Positions 16,334 to 23,688 of a DNA stretch of 64,000 nt are shown piece after piece. The DNA is from Natrialba aegyptia DSM 13077 (GTDB lineage Archaea; Halobacteriota; Halobacteria; Halobacteriales; Natrialbaceae). The position numbers and the translations under genes were made by a program. Below the pieces are notes generated by a model. The model was given only the letters and a program-made list of their open reading frames with translations, searched no databases and was not told the origin of the DNA. The stretch lies in contig NZ_AOIP01000029.1 of NCBI RefSeq assembly GCF_000337535.1, forward strand, positions 35,912 to 99,911, given 5' to 3'. Every line of letters begins with the position of its first letter. The stretch's first letter is position 1.

Positions 16334-17824
16334 TCAGTGCTGGCGCTCCACGATCGCGCCGTCGCTACCGACGGCGACCGCTCGCGGCGGCCCGACCGCA
16401 ACCGCCCGCAGCGAGTCGGCTATCCCAGTCGCAGAACTGAACTCGGTCGAGTTCAGTTGCCGTTCGAACACCGCTCCGTCGTCGGTGCAGGCGAGCAGTC
16501 GCTCGCCGCCGACTGCGAGGCCGGTCACTGCGGTATCCGTGACGCGCTCTGGGGTCCAGGTCGCGCCGTCGTATCGGTGGACGACGCCGTCGTCGGCGCT
16601 GACCAGTACCGGTACCGGCGACGGACTGGCAGGGGTAGCCGCGACGATGTCCGTGAACGTCCCCGCCGCATCGTCGAGGCCGATTCGGGAGAACGACGTG
16701 CCGCCGTCGGTCGTCTCGAAGACGCCGTTGTTGGTGTCACAGCAGTAGCCCATCGCGTCGTCGGCGAGGTCGACGCCGCTCAGACTGGAGCCGCTGCCGG
16801 GGGTGAGCGGCTCGTCCCACGCGAGTTCACCGGGCCCGCTCGTTGCGTTGTCCGTACCGGTCGGATCGCGTCGGTAGCGCCCGCAGAGCAGTTCCCCGGA
16901 GCCGTTGCTGAGCAGGATCGTCTCGGTTCCGGCGTCGCCGCCGACGGCGATGCCGAGCCAGTTGTCGGTGATTCCGGTCGGAGCCGTGTAGTCGGTGTGG
17001 CGGTCGGTGGCGGTATCGATCCGGGCGACGGTCCCGCTGTCGCCGGCGATCCAGACGGCATCGCCGTCGTCGGTTGCGGCGACGCCGGCAAGATCGTTGC
17101 CGGCGGCGGCGGGGCCGTCTTCGAGGACGGTGCGCCAGTCGCCGGCGTTCGAACTGGCAAGGACGACGCCACCGTCGCCGACGGCATAGCTGTGCCCGGC
17201 GTCAGTGATGGCTACGTCGGAGAGCGGTGCCTCGGTGGGTGCGTCGGCGGTGGTCCATTCGACGTCTCGATCCGGACGAGAACGGGGCACGTCCGCCGTC
17301 GATTGCTCTTCGTCCGGCGCTGTACCGGCGTCGACTGCCGGTTCGTGAGGTGTACTGTCGCTCGCAGTTTCATCGGTATCCGGAGCAGTCGCAGCATCAC
17401 TCACATTCTCGTTCACCGACGCTGACACAGCGGCCGGCTCGTCCTCCTGGCTCTGGGGCTGCTGATCGTCCATCGATTGCGCCACGGAACGGCTTGCGGA
17501 CTGATCAGCAGCACCCGGCCCCATTCCGAGTTCACCGCCCGTCCTGCGCCAGCGGGCGTAGAGGACGACGAGCGGGACGAGATAGGCGGCGAGTGCAAGC
17601 GCAGCGAACCAGCGGTTGACGACCGTCAGCGTTCCGAAGGCGGTCAACGCCGCAGCGGCGAGCGCGTGAACCCACGTCTTGGTGTAGGCACGAACGAAGT
17701 CGACGAATCCGTCGGCGTCGTGCTCCGACCCCGAGTGTGGCTCAGTAGCTGACATGTCGTTCGCCGTCTGCTGGTTCGATCGATCGGTGTTCGCGGCCGA
17801 CTCGCGCTCGATTTGCGGGGCCAC
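16334..17824 (-). CDS. Membrane-anchored beta-propeller protein (Ycf48/photosystem assembly-like repeats)
   Basis: 496 residues. Two membrane helices at about 50-90 are followed by a long acidic Ser/Ala/Asp/Thr linker (110-200), then a repeat domain to the C-terminus. The repeats have the form VGDGGVVLASSNAGDW, IAGDSGTVARID, GVFETTDGGTSF and CTDDGAVFERQ, which match Ycf48/BNR-like beta-propeller blades; about six or seven are visible. The role is unknown; a surface or assembly scaffold is an inference. The start may be ATG 17824, one base after the sulfatase-like stop, or ATG 17755 (MSATEPHSG). Either way it is probably cotranscribed with the sulfatase-fold gene. Confidence 0.75.
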   Translation of the reverse strand: MAPQIERESAANTDRSNQQTANDMSATEPHSGSEHDADGFVDFVRAYTKTWVHALAAAALTAFGTLTVVNRWFAALALAAYLVPLVVLYARWRRTGGELGMGPGAADQSASRSVAQSMDDQQPQSQEDEPAAVSASVNENVSDAATAPDTDETASDSTPHEPAVDAGTAPDEEQSTADVPRSRPDRDVEWTTADAPTEAPLSDVAITDAGHSYAVGDGGVVLASSNAGDWRTVLEDGPAAAGNDLAGVAATDDGDAVWIAGDSGTVARIDTATDRHTDYTAPTGITDNWLGIAVGGDAGTETILLSNGSGELLCGRYRRDPTGTDNATSGPGELAWDEPLTPGSGSSLSGVDLADDAMGYCCDTNNGVFETTDGGTSFSRIGLDDAAGTFTDIVAATPASPSPVPVLVSADDGVVHRYDGATWTPERVTDTAVTGLAVGGERLLACTDDGAVFERQLNSTEFSSATGIADSLRAVAVGPPRAVAVGSDGAIVERQH

Positions 17825-17825
17825 G

Positions 17826-19481
17826 CTACAGGTAGCCGAGATCCGCGAGTCGTTCCTTCGTTCCCTCTCGCATCGCCACCTCGCCTGTCGAAACCGACTC
17901 TCCGAGCGGCTCGAACTCGTCCTCGAGGCGCTGGCGGAGTCGCCGAACCGTCTCCGGTTCCGCGTCCGAAATGTCCGTCCGTTCGTGCGGATCGGTTTCG
18001 ACGTGGTGGAGCCGCTCGAAGCCGTCGTCGCCGCGGACGTACTTGTACTCGCTCGTCCGAATCGCCCGGAGCCGCCGGTCGAACTCGCGGACGCGGTCCG
18101 GAACGTCGTCGAACCGCGCTTCGAGCCGATCGATCGAGGGCTGCGGAGCGACGTACTCGGCGAAGACGGCGTCCCGCGAGTTCGGTGCCGCCGCGGGTGC
18201 CGTCGCGTCCGGTTTCGGCGTCCCGGTCGCGGCGGTCGTCGTTGCCGATGTCGCTCCGGCCGAGGGCGCGTCCGGCCTCGAGCCGGGATACAGCGAGTAG
18301 CCCGTCGCTTGCTCGCGCAGTTCGGGGTCGTCGACGCCGGCGGCTTCGAGCACCGTCAGCGGCACGTCGAGCAGTTGCACGAGTTCACTGCGGCGGTCGC
18401 CACCGACGAAGGGGCCACCGTGACAGACGAGCGGGACGTTGAGCAGGGTGTCGTAGAGGTTATACTGGTGACCGAAGAATCCGTGATCCCCGACGTGTTC
18501 GCCGTGGTCGCCGCAGACGACGACGAGCGTGTCCTCCCACTCGTCGTTCGTCTCGAGCGCCTCCCGAAGCCGGCCGACCTGCGCGTCGGCGTACGCCAGC
18601 GACGCGCGATACAGGCCGCGGAGCAGCGTGAACTCGCGGTCGGTGATCTCGTAGTCCTCGCAGTCGTAGGCGCGCGGGTCCTGTCGGATCGCGGTCGCCT
18701 CTTCGTAGGTCGCATCCGCGGGGAGAAATCGCTCCGCGAACTCGCGCGGCGGGTCGTACTCGACGTGGGGTTCGATGAAGTTACAGAACAGGAAGAACGG
18801 CCGGTCGTCGTCGCGGGTGGCGAGCCAGTTTTCGACCCAGTCCGCCGAGCGGGACGCCCCGTCGTCGCCCGCCGGCTGGAAGAGTTCACTGTAGAGGATG
18901 TTCGCCGCATTGACGACCGGGTTGCCGTCGAAGAGGCGGTTACGGGTCGCCCGAAGCTTCTCGTGGAGGTCCTCGCCGCGGACGACGGTCCCCATGTCGG
19001 TTTCTGACTGGATGTACTGCCAGCCCTTGCGCAGGTCGTCAAAGCCGCGGTCGAAGCCGAACTCTTCGGTGATCCACGTATTGTTCGAGACGCCGATCGT
19101 TTCGAAGCCGGCGTCGTCGAACGCCTCGGGGAGCGTCCGCAGGTCGGAATCGAGATACGTGTGGTCGCCGTGGGTGCCGTGCTCGGAGGCGTAGAGCCCG
19201 GTAAACATCGAGGCGTGGGAGGGAAGCGTCCACGGTGCCGTCGCGAACGCGTTCTCGAACGTCGTTCCCGTTTCGGCGAGCCGGTGCAGTTCCGGGGTCG
19301 TCCGATCGTGGGTGGCTGCGGCCCCGTTATTCTCGTCCCATTCGTTCTCATCGGTCTGGCCCCAGTCTCCGGCGACTCGCCGCGCCCGTGCCGTATCGAG
19401 AACGACGAGAACGACGTTCCGAACCGTAGAATGTGACTCCGATTCACCCGAATTCGACTCACGCTGGGTTTGCTCCGCCAT
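17826..19481 (-). CDS. Sulfatase-fold enzyme lacking the formylglycine cysteine
   Basis: 551 residues of the alkaline phosphatase/sulfatase superfamily. The metal site is started by VVLVVLDTARA (Asp29). The nucleophile segment reads WTLPSHASMFTG, so Thr85 replaces the cysteine that becomes formylglycine in true sulfatases and His89 replaces the usual Arg. The second metal site is VVVCGDHGEHVGDHGFFGH, followed by YNLYDTLLNVPLVCHGG, a typical sulfatase strand. An Ala/Thr-rich linker is inserted near residues 410-440. The Thr nucleophile points to phosphate or phosphoglycerol chemistry rather than sulfate hydrolysis, though family annotation is sulfatase. There is no signal peptide. It leads the unit with the propeller gene. 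Confidence 0.85.
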   Translation of the reverse strand: MAEQTQRESNSGESESHSTVRNVVLVVLDTARARRVAGDWGQTDENEWDENNGAAATHDRTTPELHRLAETGTTFENAFATAPWTLPSHASMFTGLYASEHGTHGDHTYLDSDLRTLPEAFDDAGFETIGVSNNTWITEEFGFDRGFDDLRKGWQYIQSETDMGTVVRGEDLHEKLRATRNRLFDGNPVVNAANILYSELFQPAGDDGASRSADWVENWLATRDDDRPFFLFCNFIEPHVEYDPPREFAERFLPADATYEEATAIRQDPRAYDCEDYEITDREFTLLRGLYRASLAYADAQVGRLREALETNDEWEDTLVVVCGDHGEHVGDHGFFGHQYNLYDTLLNVPLVCHGGPFVGGDRRSELVQLLDVPLTVLEAAGVDDPELREQATGYSLYPGSRPDAPSAGATSATTTAATGTPKPDATAPAAAPNSRDAVFAEYVAPQPSIDRLEARFDDVPDRVREFDRRLRAIRTSEYKYVRGDDGFERLHHVETDPHERTDISDAEPETVRRLRQRLEDEFEPLGESVSTGEVAMREGTKERLADLGYL

Positions 19482-20128: not shown

Positions 20129-20332
20129 TTACGGCTCATTCTCGTTGATGTCTCCGCGCCTGCTGACCTTCGAATGGACGGCTCCGATCGTTCGGACGCC
20201 CCAGAAAATGGTGACGCCGATACCACCGAAGGCTAGCAGGGACACGAAGACCCGGAACAGGTACTCTACAAGGGTCACGCTATGGCCCGTATGCAGTACG
20301 ACGAACGCTGGTGAACCGATAAGCGAAAACAT
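20129..20332 (-). CDS. Small two-helix membrane protein, last gene of the OsmC cluster
   Basis: 67 residues with one long and one shorter hydrophobic segment (about 4-15 and 20-48) and a charged C-terminal tail (SKVSRRGDINENEP). No family is recognised. It begins 16 bases after the stop of the preceding membrane-protein gene, so it is likely cotranscribed and may form a complex with it. Confidence 0.6.
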   Translation of the reverse strand: MFSLIGSPAFVVLHTGHSVTLVEYLFRVFVSLLAFGGIGVTIFWGVRTIGAVHSKVSRRGDINENEP

Positions 20333-20348
20333 GGATCGGTCAGATCAG

Positions 20349-20846
20349 CTACGCGGTGTGAACTCCTCGGTACGACAACACAACCCCGACAATGAACACG
20401 ATCGTCGCGAGGTAGATCGGTCCGAGATGCGTCACCCAATCGTGGGAGAACGCATTTCCCGTCCAATGCATCGGTAACGCGAGCGCCAGGCCGACGACAG
20501 CTGTGACGATCGCAGTCGTCCACGCCCAGGTGAGTCGCTGGCGCACGCCGTACCACGAGAGGCCCGTGATGGCGATGCCCGTCGAGATTATGAACGCGGC
20601 AGTGGCGACGTGGAGGTGACTGATGTAGTACGCCACCGTCGGATCGAGTTCGGCGCTCGTCATCCCATCCAGCGTACTGACGCCGAGTTCGAAGCCATCC
20701 CCCACGAAATTCATCACGAGAAACACGACGCCGTAACCGACGAACGCGATTCCGGCGAGTGCCATCAACAGCGCTCCGTTCCGGAGTTGCGACTCAATTT
20801 GGACCTGTTCTTCCTGTTCGTCCGCGACCGGGTGATTCGTCGTCAT
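20349..20846 (-). CDS. Four-helix membrane protein of unknown function
   Basis: 165 residues. A polar N-terminus (MTTNHPVADEQEEQ) precedes four hydrophobic helices (about 25-47, 70-92, 100-122 and 140-160). A central loop contains HLHVATAAF, and the loop after helix 3 has MHWTGNAFSHDW, so several histidines face the membrane surface and could bind metal or haem; this is inference. ATG 20846 is chosen because it lies five bases after the methyltransferase stop. I do not recognise the family. Confidence 0.7.
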   Translation of the reverse strand: MTTNHPVADEQEEQVQIESQLRNGALLMALAGIAFVGYGVVFLVMNFVGDGFELGVSTLDGMTSAELDPTVAYYISHLHVATAAFIISTGIAITGLSWYGVRQRLTWAWTTAIVTAVVGLALALPMHWTGNAFSHDWVTHLGPIYLATIVFIVGVVLSYRGVHTA

Positions 20847-20851
20847 GGTGA

Positions 20852-21619
20852 TTATTTGGTCGCCCCGAGTGAGATGCTCTTGACGCCGTACTTCTGGCAC
20901 GCGTTCGCCGCCCGCTCCGAGACGAATTCGTACTGCGTGTTTTCTCGGACGTCTGTCACCGAGAAGCCAGCCGCTTCGATGGACGTCGTATACCGGTCGA
21001 TCTGCTCGGCCCCGCCGATGCAGGCCGCCCAGAGGTCTTCGTCGTTTTTGATGCTCTCCGGCAGTAGCTCCTCGCTGATGATATCGGAGATGGCAAGCCG
21101 ACCGCCGGGGGCGAGCACCCGATGGGCTTCCTCGAACACCTGCGGCTTGTCCGGTGAGAGGTTGATGACCCCGTTCGAGATGACGACATCGAAGGTCCCA
21201 TCGTCGAAGGGAACGTCCTCGATGTAGCCGTGCTCGAACGAGACGTGCTCCATTCCCGCATCGTCGCGCAACGTGCGAGCCTTCTCGAGTTGCTGGTCCG
21301 TCATGTCTAAGCCGGTCACGCTTCCGGCGTTCCCCGTGTGAAGCGCTGCGACGAACGCGTCCGTGCCCGATCCACTGCCGAGATCGAGGACGTCGTCTCC
21401 GTCCTCGATAGCAGCGAGATCGAAGTAGTACCCAACGCCGGCGAACGATTCCATCGCCGCCACGGGAATTTGATCGAGGTGCGCCGGCGGATACCCGAGA
21501 CGTTCCGCCAGCTCTCGCCCCATCTCGAAGTGATACTCTTCGTCGGAGTCCTCCGCGACATCCTCGTAGACTGATTTCACCGCTTGTTCCAGTTTATCGA
21601 CATCGAGTGAGTTTGCCAT
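20852..21619 (-). CDS. ArsM-like SAM-dependent methyltransferase
   Basis: 255 residues. The SAM site is VLDLGSGSGTDAF (about 75-87), and the acidic loop is GLDMT. The segment DVVISNGVINLSPDKPQVF followed by LAPGGRLAISDI is characteristic of the arsenite methyltransferase branch. ArsM enzymes have cysteines that bind arsenite, including in GCGNP-like and SNCVINLSPDK segments; here the corresponding positions read FAGVGYYF and SNGVINLSPDK. Only the AACIGGA cysteine is kept, with another in ANACQKYGV. The true substrate is therefore doubtful. It sits in a cluster with OsmC and DUF1059 proteins. Confidence 0.8.
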   Translation of the reverse strand: MANSLDVDKLEQAVKSVYEDVAEDSDEEYHFEMGRELAERLGYPPAHLDQIPVAAMESFAGVGYYFDLAAIEDGDDVLDLGSGSGTDAFVAALHTGNAGSVTGLDMTDQQLEKARTLRDDAGMEHVSFEHGYIEDVPFDDGTFDVVISNGVINLSPDKPQVFEEAHRVLAPGGRLAISDIISEELLPESIKNDEDLWAACIGGAEQIDRYTTSIEAAGFSVTDVRENTQYEFVSERAANACQKYGVKSISLGATK

Positions 21620-21630
21620 TTGTCCCCACC

Positions 21631-22236
21631 TCAGTCGTCGGCACCCACCTCAGCAGGCGTATTCACCGTGAGGTTGACGTCCTGTTCGAGCGAGACGAGC
21701 GTGTAGACTGGCGCCCGCCGAGCCCACTCGTCGACCTCATCCTTGTCGAGGTCGGGGCTCTCGATCTCGATCTCGGCGATCAAGTTTTCGAACACCGTGT
21801 CGGCGTTCCCGAGATCCTCCACACTGAAGAGGACGCCGGGGTCAAAGTCGGTGCGAACGCGCGTCTCGAGGTGATCGATGTCGACGCCGGTTGCGACGGC
21901 GTTGATGGTAATGCCGACGTTGATGCACGAGGCAAGCGCGGAGAGCGCAACCTCGATCGGCTCCATTCGATCCGTCGCCCCGGCCCAGCCGCCGGCCTCT
22001 AGCACTTCCTTCCACCCGCCGTACGGGATCGTGTACGCGCGGGTGTCGCGCTCGATCGTCTCGCCGCCGAGATCGTACGAGTCTATCGTCGCCAGACTGT
22101 GGGCACAGGTCCCCTCGTAGGTCGACCGGGCGCGTAGCCCGAGCCGGACTTCCTCGGGATTCTCGGCGGCGTGTTCCGCGAACGCAGCGAACTCCTCGGT
22201 GTCGACCCCGTGGGTGACCTCTCGTTCGGATGTCAT
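21631..22236 (-). CDS. OsmC family protein
   Basis: 201 residues. The OsmC/Ohr core is visible as PIEVALSALASCINVGITINA, with a peroxidatic-type cysteine in LASC, preceded by the YGGWKEVLEAGGW segment and followed by LETRVRTDFDPGV. OsmC proteins reduce organic hydroperoxides or handle reactive thiol compounds. An additional cysteine occurs in YEGTCAHSLAT; whether it is the resolving one is uncertain. It begins three bases after the DUF1059 stop and ends 11 bases before the methyltransferase, so the genes form one transcription unit. Confidence 0.88.
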   Translation of the reverse strand: MTSEREVTHGVDTEEFAAFAEHAAENPEEVRLGLRARSTYEGTCAHSLATIDSYDLGGETIERDTRAYTIPYGGWKEVLEAGGWAGATDRMEPIEVALSALASCINVGITINAVATGVDIDHLETRVRTDFDPGVLFSVEDLGNADTVFENLIAEIEIESPDLDKDEVDEWARRAPVYTLVSLEQDVNLTVNTPAEVGADD

Positions 22237-22239
22237 GGA

Positions 22240-22413
22240 TCAGACCACCTGGAGGTGCTCCTCTCGGAGTTCGTCGTCCGAGTAGTCCCGTCCGTGGTCC
22301 TCCTGCATGTGGTTCTTGGCCAGTTCGACCGCTTCGAGTTCGTTCTCCGACTGGATGATAAAGCGGCAATCGCCGGCTTCCGATTCACAGTCGAGTTTGT
22401 ACGCGTCTACCAT
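22240..22413 (-). CDS. DUF1059 small protein
   Basis: 57 residues (MVDAYKLDCESEAGDCRF, then KNHMQEDHGRDYSDDELREEH). The pattern of two cysteines near the N-terminus, then a helix and HxxxDH residues, fits DUF1059, small proteins thought to bind metal. It is the first gene of the cluster. The start ATG at 22413 follows a palindromic sequence. It is only three bases from the OsmC start. Confidence 0.82.
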   Translation of the reverse strand: MVDAYKLDCESEAGDCRFIIQSENELEAVELAKNHMQEDHGRDYSDDELREEHLQVV

Positions 22414-22426
22414 TGTGTCTCAGTTG

Positions 22427-22458
22427 CCTTGCGGCATTCGTGGTAACGTGCCACAAGG
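22427..22458. promoter_or_regulatory. Candidate palindromic operator of the OsmC/ArsM-like cluster
   Basis: An inverted repeat CCTTGCGGCA (22427-22436) and TGCCACAAGG (22449-22458) with a 12-base spacer and one mismatch. It lies 14-45 bases upstream of the DUF1059 start codon, overlapping the expected position of TATA and BRE elements. Such placement is typical for a repressor binding site. A possible regulator, the FilR1-like protein, is encoded upstream. Confidence 0.65.
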
Positions 22459-22735
22459 TTAGATAGCTACCTCATGCCGTGTGCGCAGCAGGCAACAGCC
22501 CGTGTGGAGTCTGCGAGTTCCGCAGTCGTTGCCGATCGATCAGGTGCTGAAAAACCGCGTCGTCATTGCAAGCGAGGTGACCGGAAACACGGCGGGACCC
22601 GTCACAGCTACCTCTTGGTTCCGCTACGAACGGCTACCTACTGTCCTCCGGGGGCCCGATGGTCTCGCCTCTCATCCGGCTGGTGGGTCCCGTGGAGCAA
22701 GGGAAAAGAACACCAACCGGTCCGATCACCGCCTC

Positions 22736-22816
22736 ATACGGTCTGCTGTAACGATTTACCGGTGCAACCGCGCCCGTCCTGCGGTTGCGCCGGAAACGAC
22801 TTACAGCAGTCCGTAT
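22736..22816. repeat. 81-bp palindromic dispersed repeat, copy B
   Basis: It shares 76 of 81 bases with copy A at 9453-9533. Ends ATACGGTCTGCTGTAA and TTACAGCAGTCCGTAT are inverted, and the internal arms GGTGCAACCGC and GCGGTTGCGCC also pair, so the transcript could form a long hairpin. Its last base overlaps the TGA stop (22816-22818) of the FilR1-like gene on the minus strand. Confidence 0.85.
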
Positions 22817-23622
22817 CAAAGATCGTTTTCGAGAGGGAGTGTTGGCGTCTTTCGTCGGTGGGAAGCGAAGGTTGATTCCGCCCATTCGCGCGCGTCTGTC
22901 GCGTCGGTGTCGACAAGAACTCGAACCGTAACCCCCTCGGTGCCGTACCCAATTATTGCGATTCGGTCGTCGCATATACTGACCCCAAACGGCGGTAACC
23001 CATCGTGTAATCGGACATCGAGATTGCCGCTCTCTAATGCCTCCGAGAACAGATCCGGGCAGTCCGAGCGAATGTAATCGGCCACCCTCGGCGGGTTGAT
23101 GAGCTCTGTTTCCATCCCATCGATAACTCTCCGGCAGAGTTCGTTCTTACACGAATCGAGCATGGCAACGTCGAGGCCGGTAAACCGCAATCGATCCGTC
23201 TCCTCGATTAGCGAACAGAAACGGGTGATCGGCCGGGATGGGTCCTCGGGGTCAGCGACCGTTACGGTTGCATCCGAGCACATGTCGATGGTGAAACCGC
23301 TTTCTTCACCCGGAAGCAAGCGCCAAACGTTACGTAGCTTCTGTTCGGTTTCGACTCGGTCGATCACATCCGCCATCGCTGACGCAACGAAGGCACCCAG
23401 TTGTGTCACCGCGTACTGATATCCATCCCTGTAAACCCAATCGCGATCTTCGAACTCGCTGAGCGTCCGTCTGATCGTGGACTCCGAAACGCCGGTCATC
23501 TCCCAGAGTTCGGACCGGCTTCGAGGACGAACCGTGAGCGCGATAAGCGTTGGCGCACGGTGTTCGGATCGTGCAAGGTACGCTATATCGTCGATCGGCG
23601 TCTTCGTGCCACTTAACCCCAT
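22816..23622 (-). CDS. FilR1-like helix-turn-helix transcription regulator
   Basis: 268 residues. An N-terminal winged helix (about 10-85: APTLIALTVRPRSRSELWEMTGVSESTIRRTLSEFED, split here by description) is followed by a C-terminal domain resembling the FilR1 family, with ITRFCSLIEETDRLRF, RVIDGMETELINPPR and IAIIGYGTEGVTVRVL-type strands. It likely senses a small ligand and binds DNA. ATG 23622 (MGLSGTKTPIDDIAYL) is preferred to an arginine-rich upstream extension. The stop codon overlaps repeat copy B. Candidate targets are the adjacent OsmC cluster or itself. Confidence 0.82.
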   Translation of the reverse strand: MGLSGTKTPIDDIAYLARSEHRAPTLIALTVRPRSRSELWEMTGVSESTIRRTLSEFEDRDWVYRDGYQYAVTQLGAFVASAMADVIDRVETEQKLRNVWRLLPGEESGFTIDMCSDATVTVADPEDPSRPITRFCSLIEETDRLRFTGLDVAMLDSCKNELCRRVIDGMETELINPPRVADYIRSDCPDLFSEALESGNLDVRLHDGLPPFGVSICDDRIAIIGYGTEGVTVRVLVDTDATDAREWAESTFASHRRKTPTLPLENDL

Positions 23623-23688
23623 GGTACTAATACACACGAGGGGTTGAAAAGCCCTATTTTTGGCATCCATGCGAAAACCGTTACCGCC

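Follow-up and report, generated by a model that had tools for sequence, protein, structure and literature searches.

Five small genes on the minus strand of a 64-kb stretch of Natrialba aegyptia DSM 13077 DNA (the window, by which the whole stretch analysed is meant) form a genuine and conserved cluster, as judged from comparative sequence analysis, and on balance probably represent, in its most compact form, a regulon by which haloarchaea respond to stress or detoxify a compound, one that is switched by its own regulator and combines methylation with thiol redox chemistry. The gene set to which they belong appears as a previously undescribed haloarchaeal regulon with one shared promoter element. 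The novelty lies in this uncharacterized regulon around an ArsM-derived family, the ArsM, OsmC, DUF1059 and FilR1 families themselves being known; in the open-access literature, no paper was found naming OsmC together with DUF1059, nor any naming HVO_A0261. The features concerned, in the order of transcription, are:

About 22816 to 23670, minus strand: transcriptional regulator with an HVO_A0261_N winged helix and a FilR1_middle domain (Pfam); start codon uncertain.
22505 to 22549, minus strand: three direct repeats with 18-bp spacing, CAGCACCTG (22549-22541), CAACGACTG (22531-22523) and CAGACTCCA (22513-22505).
22442 to 22533, minus strand: promoter element as modelled, with CA-N5-TG repeats, a BRE/TATA-like box and CGT(A) close to where transcription is predicted to start.
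22464 to 22469, minus strand: TAGCTA box, a non-canonical TATA-like promoter core.
22427 to 22458, minus strand: inverted repeat CCTTGTGGCA-N12-TGCCGCAAGG (22458-22427), 9/10 arm pairs.
22240 to 22413, minus strand: DUF1059 protein, 57 aa (PF06348, 2.1e-5).
21631 to 22236, minus strand: OsmC-family protein, 201 aa (PF02566, 2e-8).
20852 to 21619, minus strand: ArsM-like SAM methyltransferase (MT), 255 aa, assigned by profile and fold comparison.
20349 to 20846, minus strand: four-TM membrane protein of no known family, 165 aa with the ATG at 20846 as start.
20129 to 20332, minus strand: small membrane protein of 67 aa, encoded next after four-TM and kept at this place in 13 loci.

The initial annotation had described five short-spaced genes at this site, and gene calls and Pfam domains agree with it: the intergenic gaps measure 3-16 nt, and Pfam assigns DUF1059, OsmC and methyltransferase domains within the cluster together with HVO_A0261_N and FilR1_middle in the upstream regulator. 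Its suggestion that these genes constitute a functional module was borne out by a search for MT homologues in 392 Halobacteriales genomes, from which about 80 loci were retrieved (83 MT loci enter the counts). Members of the close MT family mostly have 62% identity or above, with a clear gap to a second group that falls mostly in the range of 40-49%. Among named organisms, N. taiwanensis (98% identity in MT) and N. asiatica (96%) are nearest. Far from being confined to the window, the order regulator-DUF1059-OsmC-MT-four-TM recurs in approximately 15 loci of several genera, including Natrialba, Haloarcula, Halorubrum, Halobiforma and Haladaptatus, while regulator-OsmC-MT is found in about 45 of the 83 MT loci and close regulator homologues in 70. 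At five loci from which the usual OsmC is missing (L070, L074, L083, L085 and L110), a CMD/AhpD-family protein is encoded near MT, and a Tat-type cupin lies downstream of MT in L073, L074, L091, L098 and L107. Within a phylum-wide sample, the MT family (>440 bits) was limited to the Halobacteriales, all other matches scoring about 220 bits or less. Halorubrum sp. CBA1125 (L041) carries a second MT paralogue, 69% identical to the window MT, just upstream of the regulator; about 2.9 kb separate it from the main MT, which lies downstream. Downstream of the window cluster (16334-19481, minus strand) are a sulfatase-family gene and a gene for a YCF48-like beta-propeller protein; close homologues of these occur at the same place only in Natrialba loci, and hence the two genes lie outside the module.

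Alignment of the upstream regions revealed a common element in which CA-N5-TG recurs every 18 bp, followed by CAC.A.(A/T)TAGCTA(C) and, about 23 nt further on, by CGTA. The spacing of CGTA from the box is that expected for a transcription start, which in the window is predicted to fall at about 22445. With a leave-one-out position weight matrix (PWM), the element was detected in 73 of the 83 MT loci; the best scores on the reverse strand, serving as a control, were usually about 7 or less, with three higher values, the two strongest of which proved to be further sites before regulon-type genes. The window element scores 31.9, and the next best site anywhere in the 64 kb scores -7.8. Autocorrelation over 136 distinct sites gave a peak at 18 bp (0.36 vs. 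approximately 0.26). A 14-bp inverted repeat within the element, perfect in some loci (L103), was rejected as a general feature: over all sites its arms matched at 6.75 of 14 positions compared to 6.13 for dealt-out arms, and because this is just slightly above that control, the 18-bp direct repeat is taken to be the general feature.

The initial annotation had instead proposed a palindrome, the inverted repeat at 22427-22458, as the operator. The repeat itself is present in the promoter region, spanning the putative transcription start together with the 5' UTR, with the conserved element directly upstream, and a 9/10 inverted repeat over a start site would suit an operator of the adjacent regulator. 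Such a role is nevertheless highly improbable, and the candidate was rejected. The arms (10 nt, with a 12-nt spacer) pair at 9/10 positions in the window and N. asiatica, are degraded to 7/10 in N. taiwanensis, and do no better than background (5-7/10) in the 13 other loci that begin with DUF1059, such that conservation is limited to Natrialba; moreover, inverted repeats of at least 9/10 occur in 31 of 83 upstream regions, indicating that this quality is frequent by chance. Overlapping the right arm is a possible small hairpin with a GNRA loop (TGCC-GCAA-GGCA; 22425-22436, minus strand) in the predicted 5' UTR. GNRA-loop hairpins whose stems measure 4 bp or more were found in 23 of 82 UTRs compared to 1.06 expected from shuffling. 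Their covariation did not exceed that of shuffled controls, and a conserved 5' UTR hairpin was consequently dropped as a candidate; the purine-rich ribosome-binding region may account for much of the recurrence.

The distribution of the element extends well beyond the MT loci. A sequence-only model of it (R1), trained on the MT loci alone and run genome-wide, gave matches in 113 of the 392 Halobacteriales genomes at E ≤ 1e-3. Sixty regions around further sites were retrieved, chosen among the stronger matches (weaker sites may precede other genes), and in 59 of these, L246 being the exception, the downstream gene belonged to one of eight families: DUF1059 (in both a 57-aa and a 70-85-aa form), four-TM, BBE-type FAD oxidase, OsmC, cupin, Zn-ribbon (a 60-aa protein of the Brz type), Rv2258c-like methyltransferase and AhpD. 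This target set was not built into R1, since the model had been trained in MT loci only. DUF1059, four-TM and OsmC genes were also found in separate transcription units, each with its own copy of the element, and the presence of a shared element upstream of independent units exceeds chance, as a regulon demands. Of the genes recognized behind the element in the regions examined, none encodes a catalase, a superoxide dismutase or a thioredoxin.

A link between the cluster and the adjacent ligand-domain regulator, also proposed earlier, gained support both from adjacency and from the co-occurrence of regulator and element among genomes. The regulator, in which the HVO_A0261_N and FilR1_middle domains are both present, belongs to a clade that was found in 111 of the 392 genomes (E ≤ 1e-55). 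Clade and element are both present in 103 genomes and both absent from 271, with ten genomes having the element only and eight the regulator only (Fisher p ~4e-72, a value inflated by the shared ancestry of the genomes). An element site lies 0-400 nt past the regulator stop codon in 58 of 67 MT loci. Of 64 further element sites, 26 immediately follow a regulator gene as well; the remaining sites would be controlled in trans. One regulator clade is probably common to the whole gene set, and adjacency and co-occurrence suggest, but do not establish, that it binds the element. Given that the repeats are upstream of a non-canonical TATA-like box, the regulator appears more likely to be an activator than a repressor. 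FilR1_middle is the former DUF1724, and the regulators that carry it include the Msr regulators of methyltransferase genes in Methanosarcina, to which the haloarchaeal regulators may be linked. Msr regulators likewise combine an HTH with FilR1_middle and are encoded directly upstream of methyltransferase operons; the haloarchaeal clade differs in having an 18-bp-repeat element of its own and targets outside methanogenesis. As a possible lead, MsrC has recently been discussed in the context of thiol/disulfide sensing (2024; PMC11619418). In several genomes, the regulator gene contains one in-frame stop (L054 of N. asiatica, L055, and genomes G355, G243, G074 and G194), which suggests decay of the regulator or sequencing error with retention of the operon.

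With regard to the individual products, the OsmC-family protein has the fold of its family (PF02566) and retains only the first of the two conserved catalytic cysteines of OsmC/Ohr peroxidases. C104 is present in all 45 ungapped alignment rows and is the sole conserved Cys; the position of the second is replaced, by APVY in the window protein and Ala/Ser-Pro-Val among homologues. Its nearest solved chain, 2OPL, is a hypothetical protein that likewise has an SPVY-type replacement. The DUF1059 protein scores 25.1 bits against a Pfam gathering threshold of 21.1, and its C9, C16, H35 and H40, conserved among 30 homologues, form a C2H2 set that is a candidate metal site. The four-TM protein has five conserved His residues (H77, H79, H127, H135 and H140), and searches of Pfam, of PDB sequences and of folds gave no family, no match and no significant match, respectively. 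The initial annotation envisaged a dedicated membrane partner within the module; this is plausible, but the four-TM gene is not tied to MT alone. As it also occurs in regulon transcription units devoid of MT, the protein is better regarded as a partner of the regulon than of MT only. An anti-phage defence system was considered for the cluster and rejected, its components giving only generic domain matches in PADLOC, namely to a methyltransferase domain (mad2) and, weakly, to a Csa3 HTH.

MT had been placed in the arsenite-methyltransferase branch with the loss of most arsenite-binding cysteines, and on both counts cysteine pattern, profile and fold agree. MT (METHYLTRANSFERASE) has the SAM-binding class I methyltransferase domain of this branch, and its closest solved proteins are ArsM enzymes both by sequence (E ~1e-39) and by predicted fold (AlphaFold model with pLDDT 90; best PDB matches by Foldseek), no other family aligning better. 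With the ArsM/AS3MT enzymes (CmArsM, 4FR0; CrArsM, 5EVJ; PRK11873) it shares, apart from fold and SAM domain, an NLS-x-x-K motif and the equivalent of CmArsM C224. It differs from them in being shorter, in the family-wide replacement of C72 by Val (V62) and C174 by Gly (G150), in the lack of C44-type N-terminal cysteines, and in a PRK11873 score (226.6 bits) below the NCBIfam cut-off of 263. The C224 equivalent, C200, is present in 81 of 83 MT sequences and H30 is near-invariant; an invariant C241 (83/83) and a C-terminal Y-x-F...C-x-x-Y-G-V-x-S motif are specific to the MT family. The published criterion for ArsM is the possession of at least three of the four cysteines equivalent to CmArsM 44, 72, 174 and 224 (PMC5552862), and since the MT family keeps one of them (C200), it is best described as ArsM-like but not ArsM. 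Moreover, with most arsenic-binding residues lost, the substrate of MT is probably some compound other than arsenite. A partial parallel is provided by the fusion selenoproteins ArsM-AhpD (NF041537) and ArsM-DUF2284 (NF041536), where an ArsM-like domain is joined to a thiol-redox AhpD domain, reminiscent of the MT loci with AhpD; in the latter, MT and AhpD are separate genes, and MT scores far under the cut-offs of both fusion families.

The view that MT nonetheless methylates arsenite, as a divergent member of that enzyme family, and that the genes form an arsenic resistance operon would accord with ArsM being its closest family and with the window's genome having no second close ArsM-like protein. 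Against it stand the replaced cysteines and the profile score, and haloarchaea are known from these genomes to encode canonical ArsM separately: the group at 40-49% identity consists mostly of such enzymes, recognizable by the motifs CC, GCGNP, SNCV and C-x-(A/G)-GA, one of which is encoded by N. taiwanensis in addition to MT. No recurrent ars-type gene was found among the conserved neighbours of MT loci, and this view is considered very unlikely. The proposal that we favour is that a FilR1/HVO_A0261-type regulator, encoded just upstream, would bind the repeats with 18-bp spacing, which adjoin a weak BRE/TATA-like promoter, and, when bound, would more likely activate small gene sets. These would comprise DUF1059, OsmC or AhpD, the ArsM-derived SAM methyltransferase and the His-rich four-TM protein and, at other loci, the BBE-type FAD oxidase, cupin, Zn-ribbon and second methyltransferase. 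The methyl acceptor of MT may be a compound other than arsenite, either soft (sulfur, selenium or metalloid) or derived from an electrophile; C200 and possibly C241 would take part, and OsmC or AhpD would provide thiol redox chemistry. Conservation of the genes, the shared element with its target families, its co-occurrence with the regulator and the loss of the arsenite cysteines are established by sequence comparison, whereas binding of the element by the regulator, activation and a role in detoxification are interpretation. Of the earlier notion of a detoxification or volatile-methylation module, the conserved module and the methyltransferase of the ArsM branch without the arsenite site stand, and detoxification or volatile methylation as its function is plausible. 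A more specific version is advanced only tentatively, namely that a haloarchaea-specific ArsM descendant exchanged the trio of arsenite-binding cysteines for the C200/C241 pair and, alongside a single-Cys OsmC, a C2H2-type DUF1059 and a membrane protein rich in His, serves a dedicated pathway under control of the regulator that detoxifies a compound for which no methylation-based detoxification is known in archaea.

Two further readings retain the regulon and assign it another purpose. In an oxidative or electrophile stress regulon, OsmC, AhpD and the FAD oxidase would be the main actors, and MT, instead of detoxifying a metalloid, would repair or cap a metabolite or thiol that has been damaged. 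OsmC and AhpD are indeed thiol-redox families that substitute for one another beside MT, and when haloarchaea are exposed to perchlorate, an OsmC, perhaps other than that of the window, is reported to be induced along with further peroxiredoxins (PMC12175516). The missing second cysteine of the window OsmC subfamily and the lack of recognizable catalase, superoxide dismutase and thioredoxin genes behind the element weigh against this reading, which we hold to be rather unlikely. Alternatively, the regulon may degrade or modify a specific organic compound, such as an aromatic or a signal molecule, that the ligand domain of the regulator senses, with the methyltransferases and BBE oxidase as pathway enzymes. 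The occurrence of the FAD oxidase, cupin, CMD-family protein and Rv2258c-like methyltransferase behind the element is in keeping with this, and the fit of the oxidase, cupin and second methyltransferase to organic-compound metabolism counts against detoxification. Conversely, the regulon genes occur dispersed in short, separate units of variable content, an arrangement that argues for a stress response over a biosynthetic cluster, and DUF1059, Zn-ribbon and four-TM proteins look metal- or redox-related, not catabolic; an organic-compound pathway is thus rather improbable, and a regulator-switched stress or detoxification regulon continues to be preferred.

By means of one promoter element and one regulator clade, orphan families frequent in haloarchaea become connected: DUF1059, single-Cys OsmC, the ArsM-like methyltransferase, the His-rich four-TM protein, the BBE oxidase and the small Zn-ribbon protein. 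Hypothetical genes without apparent connection are thereby turned into a testable regulon, the inducer and substrate of which can be found. An annotation as ArsM-like in haloarchaea can, in addition, mislead surveys of arsenic genes.

The genome of the window contains two more good element sites. One precedes a gene for the long form of DUF1059, beside the only close paralogue of the regulator (54%), while the other (G000:C31:154005-154094; L188) precedes a decayed-looking cupin gene followed by an intact gene for the 60-aa Zn-ribbon protein. The same combination of decayed-looking cupin and intact Zn-ribbon genes is found behind the element in N. taiwanensis (L220), and intact pairs of the two occur in other genomes (L199, L235 and L244). 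In L105 (G232:C43), two close copies of the element on opposite strands lie about 4.5 kb downstream of MT, one of them before a Zn-ribbon-like ORF. A weaker element-like site (20.8) is present on the minus strand in L111, about 1.9 kb upstream of MT, where it precedes a gene for a Cys-rich protein that presumably resembles DUF1326.
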